This document shows positions 1,682 to 11,331 of a DNA stretch of 60,118 nucleotides, piece after piece. Under the pieces are notes generated by a model, which saw nothing but the letters and a program-made list of their open reading frames with translations, was not told the origin of the DNA and made no database searches. Both the position numbers and the translations under genes were made by a program. Position 1 is the first letter of the stretch. Every line of letters starts with the position of its first letter. Source of the DNA: an uncultured Pelagibacteraceae bacterium (GTDB taxonomy: Bacteria > Pseudomonadota > Alphaproteobacteria > Pelagibacterales > Pelagibacteraceae); NCBI GenBank assembly GCA_902619835.1, contig CACNFS010000007.1:1-60118 (forward strand), written 5' to 3'.

Positions 1682-2803
1682 TTATTTAAAAAAATTACGA
1701 ATATTTTTAAAAAAATAATTAATTTGGTCATTTGTCATTTCAGAGTGAATAGGAAGAGCTACAATTTTATTTTTAATTTTTTCTGTAAATGGGATCCTTT
1801 TTAAATCTTGAGCTTCAATTTTTTGTTTGTAATAGGTAGTAGTGTGTACACTTGTATAATACCTTCTGCAATAAATTCTTTTTGATGCCATATATTTTAA
1901 AAATTTAGCAACTGAATCACTCTTTAAAATTATTGGGAAAAAAAAATAGCTGCAAAAAACATTTTTATTTACTTTCATACAAGAAATTTTACTTTCGTTC
2001 TCTAATTCTTTAAAAAATTTTAAATATTTTGAAATTACTTTTTTCCTATTTGAAACTAAGTTTTTGATTCCTTTGAGATTCTGTATTCCTACAATTGCAG
2101 ATAATTCATTCATTTTTGAATTAAGACCAGGTATTAATACATCGTTCGCACCCTTTTTTAATTGCCCAAAATTTCTTGCAGCTACAAGTAATTTTCTTAT
2201 ATTATTGTTTGTAGTTATTGCACAGCCACCTTCAATTGAATTAAAAATTTTGGTTGCATGAAAACTATAAATTTCATCTACTCCAAAATTTATCGGAAAT
2301 TTATTATTTATTTTTGAACAAAAACCTGGAGCATTATCTAAAATAAATATTAATCTGTTTTTTTTGGCAAATTTTTTAATTTTATTTATTTCAGGTATGT
2401 TTCCATAAACTGAAGCTCCAATAATAAATTTTACATCTTTTGTAATTTTAATTTTTTTTAAATCTAAAGTAAGTGAATTATTAATATCACAAAAAATAGG
2501 CTCTATATCATTTTGTACAAGAGCGTTTACTGTTCCAGAAAAAGTGAAAGACGGAACTATAGCTTTACAATTCTTAATATTAGAATTGAACTTCCAGGCT
2601 TGAATTAAAGAGTATAAAGATAGTTCACCGTTACAAAAAACTACAGGTTTTAATTTTGAATTAAAATATTTTTGCAACATTCTCTCAAATTTCAGTAAAT
2701 TTTGTCCATCATTAGTAAGATATTGCCTATCAAAACAATCTTTCATCTTTTGTGAAACGTATTTAAATTTTGGTATTTGTGGGACTATTGTTTTAATGAT
2801 CAT
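1682..2803 (-). CDS. DegT/DnrJ/EryC1/StrS family PLP-dependent sugar aminotransferase
   Basis: A 373-residue fold-type-I aminotransferase. The PLP lysine is visible as K185 (SFHATKIFNSIEGG) and the pyridine-binding Asp as D156 (FILDNAP). The N-terminal substrate region reads PSFTFSGTVNAL. The family transfers an amino group from glutamate to a nucleotide-linked or free keto-sugar. It is the last gene of a five-gene minus-strand run (7375 to 1682), 5 bp behind the NeuB-like gene. That context suggests it makes an amino sugar used for, or derived from, the acidic ketosugar of this cluster. The usual 'EDAAQA' motif is altered to LDNAPG, so it belongs to a divergent branch. The exact substrate is unknown. 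Confidence 0.85.
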   Translation of the reverse strand: MIIKTIVPQIPKFKYVSQKMKDCFDRQYLTNDGQNLLKFERMLQKYFNSKLKPVVFCNGELSLYSLIQAWKFNSNIKNCKAIVPSFTFSGTVNALVQNDIEPIFCDINNSLTLDLKKIKITKDVKFIIGASVYGNIPEINKIKKFAKKNRLIFILDNAPGFCSKINNKFPINFGVDEIYSFHATKIFNSIEGGCAITTNNNIRKLLVAARNFGQLKKGANDVLIPGLNSKMNELSAIVGIQNLKGIKNLVSNRKKVISKYLKFFKELENESKISCMKVNKNVFCSYFFFPIILKSDSVAKFLKYMASKRIYCRRYYTSVHTTTYYKQKIEAQDLKRIPFTEKIKNKIVALPIHSEMTNDQINYFFKNIRNFFK

Positions 2804-2808
2804 TAGAA

Positions 2809-3858
2809 CTACTTAAAATATTTTTTTTTTATAAGTTTATCCGCTTTTATATTAACTTTTGCCGTTCTTCCAATAATTGTATCAATTTTTAATGGATTTA
2901 TTCCAGTCCCTGGTTTTTTCATTTCCAACATATTTTTAGTGATTTTTGATCCTTTTTTTATGTTAATCCTAGAAATAAGACTTGGTCTATGGACTTTAAA
3001 AACCTCTTTTTCAACATTAGTAATTATTTTTTTTGAAGATCCTAATGCTGACTCCACCTCTCTAATACTTTTTACAAGATTTTTTAAATCGTTAGGTGAT
3101 GCGGATGCATCGTGATCAGCGCCAAAATCGTTTTGTTCAAGCGTAAAATGCTTTTCAATTATCTTTGCTCCTAAAGCTACTGCCGCCACTGGCACGGTTA
3201 TTCCCATCGAGTGATCTGAATAACCAACAATGCAGTCAAAGACTTTTTCAAAAGTTTTCATTACTCTCAAATTTGCATCCTTAGGTTTTATTGGGTAGTG
3301 AGAAACACATTGAAGTATAGCAACAGGTTTTCCAGATTTTTTTAAAATGTTATAAGCATTTTCAATCTCAGCTATTGTATGGAGTCCTGTGGACATGATT
3401 ACTGGTTTTTTGTGTCTTGCTATACTTTCCAACAAAAAAGTATTTGTTAAGCTAAAAGAGGCAATTTTAAATAAAGGCACGCCTATTTTATCTAAAAAAT
3501 TTCCATTTTTTACATCAAAGGGAGTACAAAGAAACATTATACCTTTTTTTTTACAATAATTTTTTATTTGAATAAGCTCCCATTGTGTAACCTCTAATCT
3601 TTTGAAAAATTCATTTATTTTCTCACTTTTACTTAAAAGACCTTTTTTCATGTAAGACGCATAAAACGAGTCTTTGGAGATATATTTTTTTGTATTAAAC
3701 ATTTGAAATTTGACAGCATCAACTCCTGCATCAATAGCAACATCAACTAATTCTTTTGCTTTTGATAATGATCCATCGTGATTTATACCTGCTTCACCAA
3801 TAATAAAACATCTATTTTTTTTGCTTATTGATTTGTTTTTAAGTTTTATCTTATCCAT
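2809..3858 (-). CDS. neuB: NeuB-like N-acylneuraminate / nonulosonate synthase
   Basis: A PEP-dependent condensing enzyme that joins PEP to an N-acyl hexosamine to form a nine-carbon acidic sugar (sialic, legionaminic or pseudaminic type). The barrel motifs are clear: GEAGINHDGS near the start, AVKFQMF, FLCTPFD, MSTGLHTIAEI, LQCVSHYP and VGYSDHSMGI, then EKHFTL. A C-terminal SAF (antifreeze-like) domain follows (HRPSLISRINIKKGSKIT to the end), giving the usual length of about 350. I prefer the ATG at 3858, 1 bp after the upstream stop, over the TTG at 3894, which would overlap the previous gene by 35 bp. The product cannot be assigned between sialic, legionaminic and pseudaminic acids from sequence alone. 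Confidence 0.88.
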   Translation of the reverse strand: MDKIKLKNKSISKKNRCFIIGEAGINHDGSLSKAKELVDVAIDAGVDAVKFQMFNTKKYISKDSFYASYMKKGLLSKSEKINEFFKRLEVTQWELIQIKNYCKKKGIMFLCTPFDVKNGNFLDKIGVPLFKIASFSLTNTFLLESIARHKKPVIMSTGLHTIAEIENAYNILKKSGKPVAILQCVSHYPIKPKDANLRVMKTFEKVFDCIVGYSDHSMGITVPVAAVALGAKIIEKHFTLEQNDFGADHDASASPNDLKNLVKSIREVESALGSSKKIITNVEKEVFKVHRPSLISRINIKKGSKITKNMLEMKKPGTGINPLKIDTIIGRTAKVNIKADKLIKKKYFK

Positions 3859-3859
3859 C

Positions 3860-5053
3860 CTAATAGTTTTTATTATACAATTGTGAAGAATCAAAGCGCT
3901 TAATATTTTTTTTTAACACTTTGTTAATTATGTTTTTAAATTTACGATTTCCTTTATCAAACTCCATTAATTGATAACCAAATTTTTTTCTAACTTTAGC
4001 CCATTTGCTTTTTGGAGCCTTAAGAACAAATGTAAAAATTCTTTCAAACTCTTTTTGATCATTAGCTTTACAAGTAGTCCAAAAGGGACCTTGAAGAGAA
4101 AATTTTTCAATTACACCTAACCTTGCGTTATTCCAGGCCTCATTTTTAGGTTTATTAAAAATAAAACCAACTCTTCCACCTTTTACTAATTTTTCTACAC
4201 CCAAAGTTGACCAAGTAGTAAAGCAAGTTTCGTACTTATCTAAAATTTTGTAAGAATCTGGAAAATCATTTTTGGAAATATAATTAAAATTATTACCAAT
4301 AATCTTTTCATAAAATTTTCTTTCAATCAATTCTGTTAAATTTTTATTTCTACCCAAAATATCTAATTCTAACTGATTTTTTTTTAAAAAATTATTTAAA
4401 CACTTTATTACAAACTTATCATTTTTTTGAAACTCAGAATTTTTAAATTTTTTATTAGTTTTAGGATTCATCCAGTCTTTCCCATCTTTTTTAAAAGTTG
4501 AAATCCATAAAACTTTTTTTTTTAATATTTTTTGTTTTTTTCTTTTAATATTATTCAAAAACGAACCTATAGGAATAATTTTTCCTGAAATAATTTTCTT
4601 ATACTCTTTTTTAATTATTTGATTGTGCACAAACATAAAATTTACATAATTATTTTTACTATATTCTTTTTTATGTTTGAATAGACCATCGCTTAATGTT
4701 CGTTTCCCTCTGACTACAAAAGCAGTTTTGATTTTAGTTAATCTGTGCAATTTATAAAAAAAATCAAAATGATCATAGTAAGTTAAAATAATTTTTGGTT
4801 TAACAAATTTTATATAATTAAGATAATAATCCAAACTTGAAAACTTTAAGCTAAAAAGACATTTTAGAATTACAGGTAAATTTATTTCTTCACCTCTTCT
4901 AAAAATTATTTCATAGGCCCTCTCTTTAAAAAGAAATTTGAATGGATTATTGCTTCCATCAATTATTAATATATTTTTTTTTGGTGGAAAATTCATCTTC
5001 CATCTAGAAAAAAAAATTAATTTAATTAGATTATAAAATTTCATTAATCTCAT
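3860..5053 (-). CDS. LA_1612-type putative surface carbohydrate / O-antigen biosynthesis protein
   Basis: A 397-residue soluble protein resembling the family first noted in Leptospira LPS clusters (LA_1612 type, 'surface carbohydrate biosynthesis protein'), with a presumed GT-B-like fold. Recognisable stretches are NILIIDGSNNP at the N-terminus, KPKIILTYYDH, FVVRGKRT, and the C-terminal block TTWSTLGVEKLVKGGRVGFI. The last resembles the 'STxGxE' donor-site loop of GT-B transferases. It starts 1 bp after the KdsB-like gene and ends 1 bp before the NeuB start, so it is translated in the same operon. A role in transferring the acidic sugar is plausible but inferred from position only. Confidence 0.6.
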   Translation of the reverse strand: MRLMKFYNLIKLIFFSRWKMNFPPKKNILIIDGSNNPFKFLFKERAYEIIFRRGEEINLPVILKCLFSLKFSSLDYYLNYIKFVKPKIILTYYDHFDFFYKLHRLTKIKTAFVVRGKRTLSDGLFKHKKEYSKNNYVNFMFVHNQIIKKEYKKIISGKIIPIGSFLNNIKRKKQKILKKKVLWISTFKKDGKDWMNPKTNKKFKNSEFQKNDKFVIKCLNNFLKKNQLELDILGRNKNLTELIERKFYEKIIGNNFNYISKNDFPDSYKILDKYETCFTTWSTLGVEKLVKGGRVGFIFNKPKNEAWNNARLGVIEKFSLQGPFWTTCKANDQKEFERIFTFVLKAPKSKWAKVRKKFGYQLMEFDKGNRKFKNIINKVLKKNIKRFDSSQLYNKNY

Positions 5054-5054
5054 C

Positions 5055-5792
5055 TTAGCTTTTTTTTGCTAATATTTTATTCACCTTTTTTAAATCTCTA
5101 TCTAAATCAACAGATACGGATTTATTGCTCATAGGAATCATTTTAACTTTTGTACCTAATTCCAAAAATCTTAAAATTTCGATATCTTCAATTGACTCTA
5201 AAGTTGTTTTTTTTTTCAAATTACCAAATTTAATTAATTCTTTTCTTGGGAAACTGTAAGCTAAAACTTGTCTGAAATATCTGCTACTTTTATTATTACC
5301 ATCTGATGGTATTTTGTTTCTTGAAGCGTACAATAGGTACCCTTGATTGCTTACAACAACTTTTGGAATACTTTTATTTTTTATGTCAAAATTGTTATTG
5401 ATTCTTGTAAAACCTAATAAAACTTCGTTTGCAAATTTATCTTTAGCCTTGATCAAACTAGATAAATCCTTTGGGTTAAAAATTGGTTCGTCTCCTTGAA
5501 CATTTATGTAATGAGAATAATTGGTTTTTTTTGCTATTTCATAGACTCTATCTGTTCCAGTAAGGCAATGCTTACTTGTTAGCTTTGAATTAAAACCAAA
5601 TTTATCACATTCTTTAATAATTTTTTTACTATCTGTTGCTACTAAAATTCTTTTTCGACTCACTACTTTAGAACATTGAAAACATGTTCTAATGATCATT
5701 GATATTCCTCTGATTTTTTTTAATGGTTTACCGAGCAATCTTTTTGAAGCATACCTAGCGGGTATTACTAATATAAAATTTTTCTTTTTCAC
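5055..5792 (-). CDS. KdsB-like CMP-ketodeoxy-sugar cytidylyltransferase
   Basis: A 245-residue nucleotidyltransferase of the KdsB (CMP-Kdo synthetase) family. The N-terminal CTP loop reads VIPARYASKRLLGKPL, followed by VATDSKKI and the metal/substrate segment TGTDRVYEIA...NVQGDEP. Length matches KdsB (about 245-250). A housekeeping KdsB is expected elsewhere in a Gram-negative genome. This copy sits between an aldolase fusion (4-bp ATGA overlap) and a surface carbohydrate gene, so it probably activates a cluster-specific 3-deoxy-2-ulosonic acid rather than Kdo for core lipid A. That reassignment is inference. Confidence 0.82.
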   Translation of the reverse strand: MKKKNFILVIPARYASKRLLGKPLKKIRGISMIIRTCFQCSKVVSRKRILVATDSKKIIKECDKFGFNSKLTSKHCLTGTDRVYEIAKKTNYSHYINVQGDEPIFNPKDLSSLIKAKDKFANEVLLGFTRINNNFDIKNKSIPKVVVSNQGYLLYASRNKIPSDGNNKSSRYFRQVLAYSFPRKELIKFGNLKKKTTLESIEDIEILRFLELGTKVKMIPMSNKSVSVDLDRDLKKVNKILAKKS

Positions 5793-7375
5793 AATTTAAA
5801 GTAATCTATTTTATTTCTTGTTTTAGTTAAACTTTTTATGCTTATGTTTGAATAATTTTTTCTTATTAGTTTAAGTATATTTTCAGTTTTGATGTATGCA
5901 TTATGCTCCTTGTCATAGCCATCAATTCCTGCAAGAAAAATATTTTTTGAACCTCCAATTATAGATAAAGCGATAACATAACCAAAGGATTCGTTATAAG
6001 GAAGAACAACAAATTTATTACAACATTTAAATTCATTTTTTTTAATTATAATTCCGTAGTCTAAAAAAAGGTCTTTATTTTGAATCTTTCTAAAAGATCT
6101 CAAAATATTTAAAGGTAAAATAAATTTTTTTCCTAATCTATTATAATTTTTGTGGTCTACTAAAATTCGACCATCATTACATGAAGCGTAATAGTCTATA
6201 ACGTTTTTAGGAATAAAATTATTTATATTAATGCTAATCACTATTGGTTTCTTTTTTAAAATAAATTTCTGAATTAACTTTTTTGTTATGCTTGATCTTA
6301 AAGAGTTTCCTTGGCCTAAAATAAGTATATTTCGGTTTAAACACCACCCGTTCGCACTCCATTTGCTTAATTTAATTTTTGATTTGTTTAAATCAGTCAA
6401 ATAATTTGGATCGAATTTTTTTGAGTCAATTTTTGCTAAATGTTTTATTAAAGAACTTTGTTCAGAAATTTTATATCTTTTATCTTGTAATATTAATTGT
6501 ACATATGTTGGATGAATATTATAATTTGCTGCAATTTTGTAAAACTTTGAAGGACCCCAGTTATATTGTTTTTTTAATTTTAAAAAATATTTTTCTGAAA
6601 TGTTTTTAATCTTATTTGGAAAATAATTATCTTTTTTAAAATAAGAAAGTAAATCTTCAGTTTTTGTATTACCAGCTCCCCTTCCCATTCCTTGAATAGT
6701 GCCATCAATCCAAGAAGCACCTGATTTAAATGCAGTTATAGAATTTTTTAACGCAAGTCCGCAATTATCATGAGCATGAATTCCAAATTCTTTCTTCCAA
6801 GTTTTTTTAATAATAGAGCAAATAGTTTTGATGTTTTTTGAATTTAAATTTCCGAAAGAGTCAGCAAAATAAAAGATATCAACATTTCCCCATTTATTTA
6901 AAGTTTTTAAACAATCCACAAGATCTTTTTTTTCTACTAAATTAATTTGCATTAAATTTAAACAAACATTTAATTTCTTTACTTTAAAAAAATTAAGGAA
7001 CTTTTTAATTTTTTTTAAATCTTTTAAATGAATAGCAACTCTAACAGTATCAAAAAAATTATTTTTATGATTGAATATTCTGCGCAATTTTTTGAAAACT
7101 TTTTTTTCATCTTTTAAAAAGTCTGCTCCATTGAACATCAATGCAATTTTCTTATTTTTTTTAATATTAAGTTTTTTTAGAATCTGATTATCAATGTAAG
7201 CATAATTGCCATAATCTTTTTTTTTATCAAGAAAATGAAATCCTATTTCAATAATATCTACGTTAGCTTTAGAAATATCTTTAATATATTTTTTCACATA
7301 ATTATCATTGAATTTCCAATCATTGTAATAACCCCCGTCTCTTAACGTACAGTCTAATAAAGTGAGATTGTTCAT
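5789..7375 (-). CDS. Two-domain protein: HMGL/DRE-TIM pyruvate aldolase fused to a DUF115/MptE-like domain
   Basis: 528 residues. The N-terminal domain (about 1-275) is an HMG-CoA-lyase/4-hydroxy-2-oxovalerate-aldolase type barrel: LLDCTLRDGGYYND carries the metal Asp and catalytic Arg, and HAHDNCG carries the metal-binding His pair, followed by a GMGRGAGN loop. The C-terminal part (about 345-528) begins with LILGQGNSL and contains VISININ and FLAGIDGY. It resembles the DUF115/MptE-like Rossmann domains often found with nonulosonic acid genes. It is the first gene of a five-gene operon with an ATGA overlap to the KdsB-like gene. An operator palindrome lies 12 bp before its ATG. Members of this barrel cleave or form bonds to pyruvate, so it may build or degrade the ketodeoxy acid. 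Confidence 0.7.
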   Translation of the reverse strand: MNNLTLLDCTLRDGGYYNDWKFNDNYVKKYIKDISKANVDIIEIGFHFLDKKKDYGNYAYIDNQILKKLNIKKNKKIALMFNGADFLKDEKKVFKKLRRIFNHKNNFFDTVRVAIHLKDLKKIKKFLNFFKVKKLNVCLNLMQINLVEKKDLVDCLKTLNKWGNVDIFYFADSFGNLNSKNIKTICSIIKKTWKKEFGIHAHDNCGLALKNSITAFKSGASWIDGTIQGMGRGAGNTKTEDLLSYFKKDNYFPNKIKNISEKYFLKLKKQYNWGPSKFYKIAANYNIHPTYVQLILQDKRYKISEQSSLIKHLAKIDSKKFDPNYLTDLNKSKIKLSKWSANGWCLNRNILILGQGNSLRSSITKKLIQKFILKKKPIVISININNFIPKNVIDYYASCNDGRILVDHKNYNRLGKKFILPLNILRSFRKIQNKDLFLDYGIIIKKNEFKCCNKFVVLPYNESFGYVIALSIIGGSKNIFLAGIDGYDKEHNAYIKTENILKLIRKNYSNISIKSLTKTRNKIDYFKL

Positions 7376-7524: not shown

Positions 7525-7590
7525 ATGGGATGGTTAGGTTTTATTTTATGCAGAAAAATTTGTGCCATATTTTACTATATATGTGTTTGA
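7525..7590 (+). CDS. Possible 21-residue mini-ORF in the 7376-7574 gap (doubtful)
   Basis: An ATG at 7525 follows AGGTGA at SD-like spacing and opens 21 codons rich in aromatic and Cys residues (MGWLGFILC...), ending at TGA just inside the 3' end of the minus-strand deacetylase-like gene. AT-rich hexamers resembling -10 boxes (TATAAT) lie upstream around 7460-7475. No family is recognised. It may be a leader peptide, the remnant of a lost gene, or chance. The rest of this 200-bp gap holds only operator A. Confidence 0.15.
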   Translation: MGWLGFILCRKICAIFYYICV

Positions 7591-8900
7591 GTTAAATTCA
7601 TTTTATTATTCTTAAAATTTATTTTTACTATTGTTGTATTTCCAAATTTATCGTTAGCAGCAAACGCGAAAAAATCTAAATTTTTTAAATCAATAGAATG
7701 TCTATCAAACGTGTAAGTCCATTTTGTAAAAGGTTCTTCAATAAAAAAATTTTCATGAAAGTATTTATTAGATTTAGTTTTTAATGCTAGAAAGGGTTGA
7801 GGACCAAATATTTTATCTTTAGACTCAATAAAAATTTTTTTATTATCAAATTTTACTTTAAATTTGAGTTTTTTCTTTGTCATCTTAAATTCAGTCTGAA
7901 ATGCTTCCCTTGCATCTGAGAACCTAAATTTAATTTTATATTTGTTCGATGCCTTTTTTAGCATCTTATAAACACTCTCAAAATCCCTATCCATTGATCT
8001 AAAATCGTGGTTTGTGAAAGCTAAAATAGTTTTTTCTTTTCTTTTTTTTGCTAAAAATGCTTTATTAACTTCTTTTTGATTTAAAGTGGCAATTCTAGTT
8101 CCAACATTTAAGCATCTTGCAATCCACCTTCTGCTGTTTCCTTTTTTTTTATAGTTATCGTGTGCTGGATGGTAGGGAGTCCAATTTTTAGGTGCATTTT
8201 TCCAGTTCTCAAATCTTCCATAATTTAAATTAGTTTGATCACAAGATTGATTTGAAAAATCAAACGGGATGTATTGATTTAAAAACCAATGACTATCAGG
8301 ATTTTCTATGTGAAATCCTGCTCTAAATACGGAAGGAAACCATGTTCTATCGATAATTCTTCTTGTAAGAATTTGGAAAAGATTGTCCGAGTTAGAGAAA
8401 TAATGATTACCTGTAGTGTTAGCAACATTATTTATAGAAACTGGATGAAAGTGGAAATGTATGGTGTCTTTAATATTTTTTCTTTTAATAAATTTTGAAT
8501 AATAATCGTATATTTTATGAAAACCTAAGACTCTTTTTTGTGGATTCGATGAATAATTCACGTGATCAACACAGTTCCAATTTATTTTCCAAATATTTCC
8601 GAAACTATCTTTAAATTTTTTTCTATATTCTTTATTAAAAATTATTTCATTTTGGATATTTAACTCTCTAAGACTCTTTTTGTAATTAAGTGTGTTTTCA
8701 TTAAAAGATTTATAAAATAATTGCTTATCTTTTTTATTTAGTTTTAGGTTTATAGATCTGTTTAATATTTTATTTAGATTTCTTTTAGTTGGTTTGATTT
8801 GAATTTTAAAAATTTCCTTTATTCTTTTAAAAGTAAGCTTGTTAGACTCATACAAAGGACCCTCAGTATCAACTAAATGTACAATGTTTAAATAATTCAT
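7575..8900 (-). CDS. Polysaccharide-deacetylase-like (NodB-fold) protein, function unassigned
   Basis: A 441-residue protein from the preferred ATG at 8900, which places the conserved strand NIVHLVDTEGP at the very N-terminus. Longer TTG/ATG starts at 8969 and 8945 only add a weak hydrophobic tail. The DTEGP motif, HFHFHP near the middle and RAGFHIENPDSHWFL resemble the metal-site Asp and His motifs of NodB-type carbohydrate esterases, though the spacing is atypical. The C-terminal third looks beta-rich and may be a binding domain. It is convergent with nothing and stands alone on the minus strand. Operator B lies 92 bp upstream. N-deacetylation of a surface sugar is plausible but unproven. 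Confidence 0.5.
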   Translation of the reverse strand: MNYLNIVHLVDTEGPLYESNKLTFKRIKEIFKIQIKPTKRNLNKILNRSINLKLNKKDKQLFYKSFNENTLNYKKSLRELNIQNEIIFNKEYRKKFKDSFGNIWKINWNCVDHVNYSSNPQKRVLGFHKIYDYYSKFIKRKNIKDTIHFHFHPVSINNVANTTGNHYFSNSDNLFQILTRRIIDRTWFPSVFRAGFHIENPDSHWFLNQYIPFDFSNQSCDQTNLNYGRFENWKNAPKNWTPYHPAHDNYKKKGNSRRWIARCLNVGTRIATLNQKEVNKAFLAKKRKEKTILAFTNHDFRSMDRDFESVYKMLKKASNKYKIKFRFSDAREAFQTEFKMTKKKLKFKVKFDNKKIFIESKDKIFGPQPFLALKTKSNKYFHENFFIEEPFTKWTYTFDRHSIDLKNLDFFAFAANDKFGNTTIVKINFKNNKMNLTQTHI

Positions 8901-8991
8901 GTTAAAAAATTTGTTTATTTGTAAAGATAATATCAGAAATATCATCAAATTAAAGTAAACTGAAGACAAATAGATAAAAATATGTTTAATT

Positions 8992-9017: not shown

Positions 9018-10016
9018 ATGAAAAAAATATTGTGTTATTGCGAGTCGAATAGCAGAACAGGTTTTGGGCATTACAACAGAATCAAGATATTATTAAAAAT
9101 ACTTAAAATTAAAACAGCAGAAATTTACACTGAAAATCATAAATTAGCTCAACAGTTTTTTAAAGAGCATAGGATTATTAAAGGAAAAAATATTTTAAAA
9201 TACTTAATTAACAATCACTATAGATATAAACTTTTGATTGTGGACCCTCCCTATTATCCAAATCAATTAAAACAACAAGAAATTTTTTCTAAAAAATTTA
9301 AAAAAATTTATAATATTGAAAAAAAAAATTTTAAAACAATTTGGTTAACTGATGAGGAAAAGCCTTCCCCAAAATACTGTGATTTACTGTTAAATGATTA
9401 TCCTTTAGCTGAAAAATTCAAATATTTCTATAAAAAATTTAATAAAAAAATCCAATTAGTTCTTGGAATTTATGCATTTTTATTTTCAAAAGAAGTTTTT
9501 TCAAAAAAAAAAAAAGCTAAAAAGAAACATGTTTTAATTGCATTTGGAGGAGATGATCCAAAAAATTTGATATTAAAATTTTTTGATTTTTTTAAGACAT
9601 TAGATTTTAAAAAAATATTCATAGTTAATAAAAGAACTTATAGAATTTTAAAAAAGCATGATAAAAATAAAAATTTATTTGTAATAAAAAAAAAACCAAT
9701 GAGCAAATTTTTAAATTATCTTTATGAATCAATTTTTTATATTGCAACACCTTCAAACATTATGTTTGAGGGTTGGGCTTTTGGTATTAAAGGAAATGTC
9801 ATACCTATTCAAAAAAGGCAGTTAAAAATGGGTCAAGCCTTTAAAAAGTTAAACTTAGTGAATCTTCTTCCATATTATAAATTATTGAATAAAAAAATAT
9901 TAAGAGACAAGATAAAGATCAACTCTTTTTTAAAACCAAAAATTTTTTTTAAAAAAAAATACGCTTCAATCAATCAAATCAAACTTCTAAAATTTTATAA
10001 AAAAATTAATGACTAA
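9018..10016 (+). CDS. PseG-like nucleotide-sugar hydrolase (GT-B fold)
   Basis: A 332-residue protein resembling PseG, which strips UDP from a 2,4-diacetamido-trideoxy hexose in pseudaminic acid synthesis. Evidence: the N-terminal segment SRTGFGHYNRIKILL (the G-x-GH-x-x-R motif), LLIVDPPYY, and the second-domain loop VLIAFGGDDPKNLI followed by a C-terminal acceptor loop (TPSNIMFEGWAFG). It leads a three-gene plus-strand run and overlaps the CMP-sugar synthetase by 8 bp. The usual upstream enzymes PseB, PseC and PseH are not in this window, so the substrate may differ from the pseudaminic precursor. Homology is clear but distant. Confidence 0.68.
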   Translation: MKKILCYCESNSRTGFGHYNRIKILLKILKIKTAEIYTENHKLAQQFFKEHRIIKGKNILKYLINNHYRYKLLIVDPPYYPNQLKQQEIFSKKFKKIYNIEKKNFKTIWLTDEEKPSPKYCDLLLNDYPLAEKFKYFYKKFNKKIQLVLGIYAFLFSKEVFSKKKKAKKKHVLIAFGGDDPKNLILKFFDFFKTLDFKKIFIVNKRTYRILKKHDKNKNLFVIKKKPMSKFLNYLYESIFYIATPSNIMFEGWAFGIKGNVIPIQKRQLKMGQAFKKLNLVNLLPYYKLLNKKILRDKIKINSFLKPKIFFKKKYASINQIKLLKFYKKIND

Positions 10017-10689
10017 TATTGCGATTATACCTGCTCGAAAAGGATCAAAAAGAATAAAAAATAAAAATATAGTTCTTCTAAATGGCAAGCCGATGATTTA
10101 CTGGACAATTCTTGCTGCGAGGAAGTCTAAAATATTTAAAAAAATATATGTTGATACCGATTGTAAAAAAATAAAAAAAATATCATTAAAATATGGTGCG
10201 GAGGTTCCCTTTTTAAGAAAAAAAAAATACTCTAATAACAAAGTAAATGTAAATCTTTCTACTTTGCAATTTTTATTAAATCTAAAAAAAATAAATAAAG
10301 ATAAAATAAATAATATTTTTCAACTAATGCCTAACTGCCCTTACAGAGATGCAAATGATATAAAGACTCTATACAAAGAATTCAAAAAATATAAAAGTAA
10401 ATTTCTGATAAGCCATGTTAGATTCTACTTCTCTAACCCTTGGTGGTCAGTATTAAAACAGAAAGATAAAATCACAAAGTTGTTTAAAAATAGTTATAAA
10501 AAAAGATCACAAGATTTACATGATTTATTTTGTCCATCGGGAGCTATTTGGATCGCTAAGTACGATTCTTTTCTTAAAGCAAAAACTTTTTATGGAAAAA
10601 ACTATCAACTAGGATCTTTAGAATGGAAAAAGGGTATAGATATTGATACCAAAGAAGAATTAAAAATTTGTAGAACAATAATAAAGTAG
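10009..10689 (+). CDS. CMP-N-acylneuraminate / nonulosonate cytidylyltransferase (NeuA/PseF-like)
   Basis: 226 residues, the usual length for NeuA/PseF. The CTP-binding loop is at the N-terminus (IAIIPARKGSKRIKNKNI), followed by GKPMIYWTI and YVDTDC. A C-terminal GIDIDTKEEL matches the metal-binding Asp pair of the family. It activates a nine-carbon acid as its CMP sugar. It overlaps the PseG-like gene by 8 bp and is followed 9 bp later by a NeuD-like acyltransferase. This is a second cytidylyltransferase besides the KdsB-like gene at 5055, so the cluster may activate two different ulosonic acids. Confidence 0.85.
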   Translation: MTNIAIIPARKGSKRIKNKNIVLLNGKPMIYWTILAARKSKIFKKIYVDTDCKKIKKISLKYGAEVPFLRKKKYSNNKVNVNLSTLQFLLNLKKINKDKINNIFQLMPNCPYRDANDIKTLYKEFKKYKSKFLISHVRFYFSNPWWSVLKQKDKITKLFKNSYKKRSQDLHDLFCPSGAIWIAKYDSFLKAKTFYGKNYQLGSLEWKKGIDIDTKEELKICRTIIK

Positions 10690-10698
10690 AGATTTAAA

Positions 10699-11331
10699 AT
10701 GAAAAAAAAAGGGCTTGTAATTTTTGGAAACGGTAATCATTGTAAAATAATCAAACAAGAGATACAAAAGCAAAATAATTTAAAAATATTAGCGATTTAT
10801 AATTATTATGCAGGTAAAATTTCTTTATTAAAAGAATTCAAAAATAAAGTAAATTTAAATTCTTTCTCGAAGTTTAATGCTATTACAGCCATAGGTGATA
10901 ATAAAAAAAGACAAAGCCTGGTAAAAATAGTTGAAACAAAATTTAAAAAATGTAAATGGATCACATTAATCTCTAAAGACTCTATTTTAGCTAAAAATGT
11001 AAAAGTAGGAATTGGAACAGTTATTGTTTCTGGAGCAGTTATCAACACAAATAGTTCAATTGGGGATCATTGTATAATCAATACCTCAAGCTCGATAGAT
11101 CATGACGCTAAAATTGGAAATTTTTCAACTGTTGCTCCTAAAGCAGCTTTAGCTGGAAATGTAAAAATTGGAAACAATGTTTTTATTGGTATGAACTCTT
11201 CTATAAAAGAAAAAATGAGTATAAATAACAATGTCATAGTAGGTGCAATGTCTTTTGTAAACAAGGACTGTATGAAAAATTGTACTTATTTTGGTATTCC
11301 AGCTAGAAAAATTAAAAAAAACAAATCTTAA
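10699..11331 (+). CDS. NeuD/PglD-like sugar O/N-acyltransferase (left-handed beta helix)
   Basis: A 210-residue protein. The N-terminal half is a small Rossmann-like domain (LVIFGNGNHCKII; AITAIGDNKKR). The C-terminal half (about 95-200) is a hexapeptide-repeat beta helix with IGxGTVI, IGDHCIIN, IDHDAKIGNFSTVAPKAAL and IGNNVFIG. This two-domain plan is that of NeuD (sialic acid O-acetyltransferase) and PglD. The catalytic His is probably the H in SSSIDHDAKIG. In this operon it likely acetylates the nonulosonic acid or its amino-sugar precursor. A paralogue lies at 25807. Confidence 0.85.
   Translation: MKKKGLVIFGNGNHCKIIKQEIQKQNNLKILAIYNYYAGKISLLKEFKNKVNLNSFSKFNAITAIGDNKKRQSLVKIVETKFKKCKWITLISKDSILAKNVKVGIGTVIVSGAVINTNSSIGDHCIINTSSSIDHDAKIGNFSTVAPKAALAGNVKIGNNVFIGMNSSIKEKMSINNNVIVGAMSFVNKDCMKNCTYFGIPARKIKKNKS

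Follow-up and report, generated by a model that had tools for sequence, protein, structure and literature searches.

A conserved aldolase and CMP-synthetase cassette in a marine Pelagibacteraceae genome: a candidate route to CMP-ulosonic acids that does not use phosphoenolpyruvate

Genes for a fused aldolase and a KdsB-like synthetase, which is predicted to activate a sugar acid with cytidine monophosphate (CMP), lie next to each other on contig CACNFS010000007.1 of an uncultured Pelagibacteraceae bacterium (GenBank assembly GCA_902619835.1; 925 kb in 30 contigs, 80% complete). The window, meaning the whole stretch of DNA analysed, is this contig (C7; 60,118 nucleotides). The two genes begin a run of five contiguous genes on the minus strand (7375-1682). 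The first gene (5789-7375) encodes a 528-residue fusion of a PF00682 barrel and approximately 190 C-terminal residues: residues 1-297 (6485-7375) form a DRE-TIM aldolase barrel of the DmpG-like, metal-dependent pyruvate aldolase type and residues 338-528 (5789-6364) a domain with the predicted fold of Maf, CstII, MptE and SteA (PF01973-like). The second (5055-5792) encodes a cassette-type KdsB, or putative CMP-ulosonate synthetase (NF003952; 214.6 bits, cut-off: 193). The remaining genes encode a putative O-antigen protein of the LA_1612 family (3860-5053; TIGR04441, 235 bits, cut-off: 150), a NeuB-type synthase dependent on phosphoenolpyruvate (PEP) (2809-3894; PF03102, E-value: 2e-85) and a DegT/DnrJ aminotransferase of the generic sugar type (1682-2803; PF01041, E-value: 2e-59). 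The original prediction was of a five-gene operon for one pathway, in which the fusion and KdsB-like genes are coupled by ATGA. The contiguous genes and their families are confirmed, but the fusion stop codon and the GTG start of the KdsB-like gene overlap as GTGA, and the last three genes are better assigned elsewhere, as discussed below. The fusion and the KdsB-like gene, present once in the window, are probably the central part of a cassette for a CMP-activated ulosonic (3-deoxy-2-keto) sugar acid, whose synthesis would need no PEP-dependent synthase.

This core is found in other bacteria. Besides the window's own genome, 60 related genomes were searched, and six of them encode a full-length fusion (E-values of 5e-86 or better). 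In all six of these SAR11 relatives the gene that directly follows the fusion encodes a CMP-synthetase (four KdsB-like, two PseF-like). A scan of genome contigs with nine aligned fusions found at least 574 encoding stretches, of which the best 80 loci (not a random sample; numbered here with the prefix L) were kept. They include Pelagibacteraceae, other Alpha- and Gammaproteobacteria, Prochlorococcus, Rossellomorea, Spirochaetes, Omnitrophota, Fibrimonadaceae and Candidatus Microthrix. The aldolase was recovered in all 80 by a six-frame profile search, and 68 have, no more than 5 kb downstream in the same orientation, a CMP-synthetase gene that scores 150 bits or more (53 KdsB, 15 PseF-like). 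The synthetase starts within 200 bp of the aldolase stop in 55 loci. HAD hydrolase genes (at least 100 bits) are present in 59 of the 80 loci, accompanied by the synthetase in 53, and both genes start within 1.2 kb in 49. Among the other 12 loci, the synthetase gene is immediately upstream of the aldolase (L068, L080 and L096), a KdsB gene is adjacent on the other strand (L112), a PseF-like gene is on the other strand (L107), the synthetase matches are weaker than the threshold (L057, L075 and L111) or the locus stops at the contig edge (L098 and L119).

Neighbouring genes were clustered over six genes either way in 77 of these loci and the window (n = 78; L057, L060 and L064 were dropped by the open reading frame [ORF] filter), and adjacency was judged against the other gene families of the same loci. 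Apart from the aldolase, the two leading families are HAD, in 56 loci (position +2 in 36), and KdsB, in 49 (+1 in 36); a PseF-like family occurs in 21 (+1 in 14) and epimerases occur in 24 at scattered positions. The aldolase-KdsB neighbourhood noted in the window recurs at fixed positions in most of the 80 loci. When the fusions are grouped at 50% identity, a CMP-synthetase accompanies at least one member in 18 of the 20 clusters. Aldolase distances correlate with those of the HAD proteins (Mantel r 0.87, shuffle maximum 0.34; 58 loci) and the KdsB proteins (r 0.63, shuffle maximum 0.25; 55 loci), host relatedness being uncontrolled in these comparisons. Each of the HAD motif patterns (I, III and IV) occurs in 60 of the 61 sequences, and the two cassette HADs tested are HAD_2/beta-phosphoglucomutase-like. 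On two Leisingera plasmids the triad is annotated as aldolase, 3-deoxy-manno-octulosonate cytidylyltransferase and HAD hydrolase. A plasmid search with one cassette KdsB gives three matches (59.9-62.9% identity; next match: 39.7%), which are the same three Leisingera plasmids matched by the fusion. Among 299 genomes drawn from the phylum, a search with the fusion finds only the window's own at an E-value of 1e-60, and so the fusion is accessory and rare.

Two further features of these loci were observed. Five cassettes encode a second aldolase (L111:9618-10367, L067:9642-10379, L054:11418-12203, L071:11951-13027 and L115:11449-12234), which is presumably HpcH/HpaI-like. At L083:7992-11282 and L095:7992-11280 the fusion is surrounded by housekeeping genes, including purine genes, and adjoins a 529-residue protein that is taken here to resemble a B12/radical-SAM enzyme.

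The barrel and KdsB are also joined directly in viruses. A scan of viral contigs from IMG/VR gave 64 loci, and in 40 of these a single ORF of 480-598 amino acids encodes the barrel followed by KdsB (L131-L149, L151-L155, L157-L170, L190 and L191, e.g. L133:3897-5579; the ORF of L144 is truncated where the stretch ends). Several of these loci have identical coordinates and scores, so the 40 are not independent events. In some of the remaining viral loci the barrel and KdsB genes are adjacent. In the five contigs tested (L132, L146, L157, L167 and L171), the neighbouring ORFs match phage families of exonucleases, clamp loaders, DNA polymerases or single-strand-binding proteins. Genes for GT29 sialyltransferases (PF00777, over the cut-off) are found near the aldolase in L131, L141, L167 and L171. 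MptE-like genes, with PF01973 scores slightly or clearly under the cut-off, are found in L131, L154 and L157. Profiles built from these genes detect GT29-like genes in 12 and MptE-like genes in 26 of the 64 viral loci, seeds included. Annotated phage records give three matches to the window fusion and nine to the L133 fusion, none of which covers 80% of the query; the viral barrel-KdsB fusions are therefore known here from IMG/VR contigs only. It is possible that the one-ORF loci encode a phage pathway for a CMP-sugar acid.

The barrel of the window fusion matches PF00682 (E-value: 4e-25; 89 bits, cut-off: 29) and so belongs to the HMGL-like (DRE-TIM) superfamily. Among sequences of solved structures it is most similar to 3dxi (E-value: 7e-42, 32% identity), followed by 4-hydroxy-2-oxovalerate aldolases including DmpG (1nvm; E-values: 2e-14 to 3e-11), with isopropylmalate and homocitrate synthases ranking below. 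No paper on the function of 3dxi was found among the open-access matches listed. An AlphaFold model based on 55 aligned fusions (mean predicted local distance difference test [pLDDT] score: 91.2; predicted template modelling score: 0.75) gives the same order in Foldseek, with 3dxi (E-value: 3e-21) ahead of HOA-type aldolases at ranks 2-12 (E-values: 2.5e-18 to 1.6e-15). Arg12, Asp13, His200, His202 and Asn204 are invariant in all 55 fusion sequences; Arg12/Asp13 and the HxH motif (His200 and His202) are presumably metal-site residues. A barrel lacking its metal and pyruvate residues, which had been raised as an objection to the original prediction, is not what the alignment contains, as these four residues are kept in 55 of 55. 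By profile, sequence and fold, the fusion barrel is a metal-aldolase barrel that is nearest, after 3dxi, to pyruvate aldolases such as DmpG. It misses the cut-off of the equivalog TIGR03217 (99 vs 286 bits). According to a review (PMC3962088), the DmpG orthologue BphI is a class II pyruvate aldolase that takes aldehydes of several lengths.

The same superfamily includes Claisen-type acyl-CoA synthases of the homocitrate and isopropylmalate kind, to which the barrel has weaker matches. If the barrel were such a synthase, or another metal lyase, the cassette would provide a non-sugar acid for CMP activation. This is very unlikely, since the barrel scores best against 4-hydroxy-2-oxovalerate aldolases (115 bits, vs 62 for the best homocitrate synthase model), these aldolases occupy fold ranks 2-12 and enzymes of the KdsB and PseF families are known for acting on 2-keto sugar acids. 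The idea that all relatives of the barrel are sugar enzymes was also considered and is ruled out: non-fused plasmid relatives adjoin ATP-grasp-like, short-chain dehydrogenase/reductase, HAD-IA or catabolic genes.

The closest characterised family of the partner enzyme is KdsB, which activates 3-deoxy-D-manno-octulosonic acid (Kdo), and Gram-negative hosts make Kdo. The aldolase might then be an alternative synthase of Kdo-8-phosphate or Kdo, supplying an extra CMP-Kdo pool for a capsule. The partner enzyme of the window misses the cut-offs of the KdsB equivalogs TIGR00466 (129.9 vs 155.2 bits) and NF003948 (135 vs 281), and among subfamily models it exceeds the cut-off of NF003952 and falls under those of NF009905 (245.1 vs 255) and NF003950 (166.8 vs 234). 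The aligned KdsBs of known structure (1gq9, 2y6p and 1vh3) share the motifs K/R-H-V/I-G-I-Y and, later, L-E-Q-L-R, whose His and Gln are taken here to be Kdo contacts. The window protein has Gln in place of this His and Ile in place of this Gln. In the 49 cassette KdsBs of the neighbour-cluster set (window included), the His position is occupied by Gln in 44, Ala in four and His in one, and the Gln position by Ile in 41 and another residue in eight. In all 39 viral barrel-KdsB fusions whose motif could be read, the His position is occupied by Gln, and the housekeeping KdsB of the window's genome retains His. Because both residues are replaced in most cassette KdsBs, the cassette acid is probably other than Kdo. 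In a docking study (PMC12058783), the binding-site residues given for KdsB include a His, a Glu and a Gln; this His and Gln are read by the present authors as the replaced motif positions. As a separate observation, the KdsBs of L054, L066, L071 and L115 form a subgroup in which the diagnostic residue is Ala, and the genes of these loci are arranged differently.

The genome context also argues against Kdo. The window's genome encodes its own KdsB on C1 (TIGR00466, 161.7 bits, cut-off: 155.2) and KdsA on C6 (TIGR01362, 417.9 bits, cut-off: 314), and the KdsB-like gene of the window is consequently extra. That it might be the genome's only CMP-Kdo synthetase, an objection raised with the original prediction, is thereby ruled out. 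Ten cassette genomes, chosen by the authors from the 80, were searched for synthases, and KdsA exceeds the cut-off in seven (Rossellomorea, Candidatus Microthrix and Prochlorococcus being the other three). With KdsA already present in most hosts tested, the altered His and Gln, and a PseF-like synthetase instead of KdsB in some cassettes, a cassette devoted to ordinary Kdo is considered unlikely.

The same genomes bear on the role of NeuB. The window NeuB (2809-3894) matches PF03102 (286.7 bits, cut-off: 22.1) and falls short of TIGR03569 (377.9 bits, cut-off: 399.65). With LA_1612 and DegT in the same gene run, and a NeuB homologue in 13 of 88 surveyed loci (three contigs counted twice), all five genes might serve a single pathway: NeuB would then condense PEP to give the ulosonic acid, and the barrel would act elsewhere, e.g. 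making or recycling the aldehyde precursor. The stretches searched of the other 75 loci hold no NeuB homologue, six of the ten cassette genomes have no NeuB match (it is over the cut-off in four, one of them Rossellomorea at 32.1 bits) and the viral one-ORF fusions couple the barrel directly to KdsB, all of which make this alternative quite improbable. In Rossellomorea aquimaris, the KdsA model (127.5 bits, cut-off: 314) and the NeuB model match only one shared ORF, which is probably a DAHP synthase. The cassette KdsB is the only substantial PF02348 match in this genome, and no plausible synthase other than the aldolase was found there. In Marinobacter and P. flexibilis the cassette has a PseF-like synthetase, with no NeuB match in the genome.

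NeuB is accordingly ruled out as a standard cassette partner and LA_1612 is found in only three of the 88 loci, so that these genes and DegT lie outside the conserved core and the earlier assignment of all three to the aldolase pathway is unsupported. It is more likely that they belong to a second, conventional nonulosonate pathway together with genes on the plus strand of the window at 9018-11331. These encode a PseG-like protein (9018-10016; TIGR03590, 40 bits, under the cut-off), a PseF-like CMP-synthetase (10009-10689; TIGR03584, 151.8 bits, cut-off: 205.7) and a NeuD-family sugar acetyltransferase (10699-11331; TIGR03570, 171.6 bits, cut-off: 160.8); the second CMP-synthetase reported at 10009 is therefore present. 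The gene immediately before the fusion gene, also on the minus strand, encodes a 464-residue protein (7575-8969) that has a homologue in L091 and no match in Pfam or NCBIfam at E-values up to 0.1.

The C-terminal domain of the fusion was modelled alone with a mean pLDDT of 94.8. Foldseek matches it to an MptE-type pyrophosphokinase and SteA, and then to a Pasteurella sialyltransferase (E-value: 0.0013). VIA-align gives its highest score with the Maf glycosyltransferase 5mu5 (Z 14.5; 178 residues, 3.0 Å), followed by CstII (1ro8, Z 11.9), MptE (8sd5, Z 11.8) and SteA (9hmz, Z 11.7), and a Z of 8.5 with a mammalian sialyltransferase. The modelled domain therefore has the fold common to Maf, CstII, MptE and SteA. 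The original description of an MptE/DUF115-like domain agrees with this fold and with PF01973 matches (E-values up to 0.1) in 23 of 54 aligned fusion members, but the window protein itself has no PF01973 match and its C-terminal domain is below every Pfam cut-off. According to PMC11339370, the PF01973 domain at the centre of Maf resembles CstII in structure, and two Maf enzymes use CMP-N-acetylneuraminic acid and CMP-Kdo as donors. The C-terminal domain of the fusion may bind a CMP-sugar, as a transferase, a docking site or a feedback site.

The proposed model for the cassette is as follows. The barrel would bind pyruvate as its enolate, together with a divalent metal, and would add this enolate to an aldehyde, probably a short aldose phosphate. 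The acceptor is guessed to be a short, non-cyclising aldehyde, such as glyceraldehyde-3-phosphate or erythrose-4-phosphate, and the product of the aldol step would be a 4-hydroxy-2-keto-3-deoxy acid. Where a HAD enzyme is present, it would take off the phosphate. The KdsB-like enzyme (PseF-like in other cassettes) would then join the acid to CMP, and a glycosyltransferase would put the acid on a surface glycan; the fused Maf/CstII-like domain may be that transferase. The aldolase-KdsB route to a CMP-activated ketodeoxy acid, as originally predicted, is strongly supported by the conserved cassette, the fusions at 40 of 64 viral loci and Rossellomorea, while the activity of the enzymes is inferred from sequence and predicted fold.

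A number of observations count against this model. The fusions of L083 and L095, two similar SAR11 loci, have no strong CMP-synthetase in the stretch searched. That the fusion might occur without sugar genes, an objection raised earlier, is thus true of these exceptions, which are few among the 80 loci. Several non-fused viral barrels likewise lack a CMP-synthetase match in the stretch searched, and the non-fused barrel relatives L037-L039 are in unrelated contexts. NeuB lies in the window's own gene run. The correlation of aldolase and PseF-like distances is marginal (0.65, shuffle maximum 0.62; 21 loci, host relatedness uncontrolled). A HAD member is found in just eight of the 20 identity clusters, indicating that the phosphatase is not universal. 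The window's cassette has no HAD gene, and its 80%-complete genome yields a 26-bit HAD relative and no KdsC match; in this host, either another phosphatase would serve or the aldehyde would be unphosphorylated. In the C-terminal domain, MptE and SteA, which are not sugar transferases, fit as well as CstII does, and the fold consequently does not show CMP-sugar binding. No column of this domain holds an invariant His in the 54 members (the most frequent has His in 44, with Asn in the window protein), and the catalytic His of GT42 enzymes (CstI/CstII) is presumably conserved. Lastly, Tyr16 of the barrel, invariant in the 55 fusions, aligns with the position of the DmpG catalytic His, taken here to be residue 21. 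This replacement, together with a C-terminal fold that matches transferases among others, could mean that barrel catalysis has been lost and that the protein serves chiefly as a Maf/CstII-like transferase or binds CMP-sugars. Such a loss is extremely improbable given that all 55 sequences keep the metal set and the active-site loop unchanged, and that viral loci retain the barrel-KdsB unit with the C-terminal domain not in the same ORF.

To our knowledge, all activated ulosonic acids are assembled by PEP-dependent synthases of the KdsA or NeuB kind. No functional description of the cassette was found among the matches listed from open-access full text, with subscription papers mostly outside this scope. 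The balance of evidence leans slightly towards a wider reading, in which a PEP-independent pyruvate-aldolase route leads to CMP-ulosonic acids distinct from Kdo and sialic acids, occurs in several bacterial phyla (among the carriers a Gram-positive bacterium) and, in phages, is encoded as one aldolase-CMP-synthetase enzyme, in some cases near GT29-type sialyltransferase genes. If this is correct, the aldolase would be a third kind of ulosonic acid synthase beside KdsA and NeuB, and would make a new surface or viral sugar. Such a pyruvate-dependent branch would account for the KdsB genes annotated as CMP-Kdo synthetase in these clusters, would assign a function to the aldolase family with the solved barrel 3dxi and would predict that SAR11, Prochlorococcus, marine Gammaproteobacteria and phages have acidic sugars that have gone undetected. 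The viral fusions would also offer ready-made one-protein biocatalysts.

The components of the cassette resemble several known systems. The closest solved barrel is that of BVU_2661 (3dxi), a putative aldolase of Bacteroides vulgatus, which was solved as an N-terminal domain. DmpG and BphI (TIGR03217) share with the cassette barrel the fold, the conserved Arg/Asp/HxH set and the nearest profile, but the cassette barrel is below the family cut-off, is fused to a Maf-like domain and has Tyr at the presumed catalytic His. The Maf flagellin glycosyltransferases and CstI/CstII (GT42) are similar in fold to the C-terminal domain, which differs in being approximately 190 residues long, fused to an aldolase and without an invariant His. 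NeuB and PseI synthases also supply acids for CMP-synthetases of the PseF/NeuA type; however, they are PEP-dependent, are found in 13 of the 88 cassette loci and have no match in six of the ten cassette genomes. In its logic the proposed route can be set beside the CMP-Kdo pathway, in which KdsA, KdsC and KdsB act in steps. Both would add a three-carbon donor to an aldose phosphate, employ a phosphatase of the HAD type and rely on a KdsB-family enzyme for activation with CMP. Whereas the CMP-Kdo pathway depends on PEP-dependent KdsA, the cassette has a barrel of the DmpG-like pyruvate aldolase type, its HADs tested are HAD_2/beta-phosphoglucomutase-like and the substrate-site residues of its KdsB are altered.

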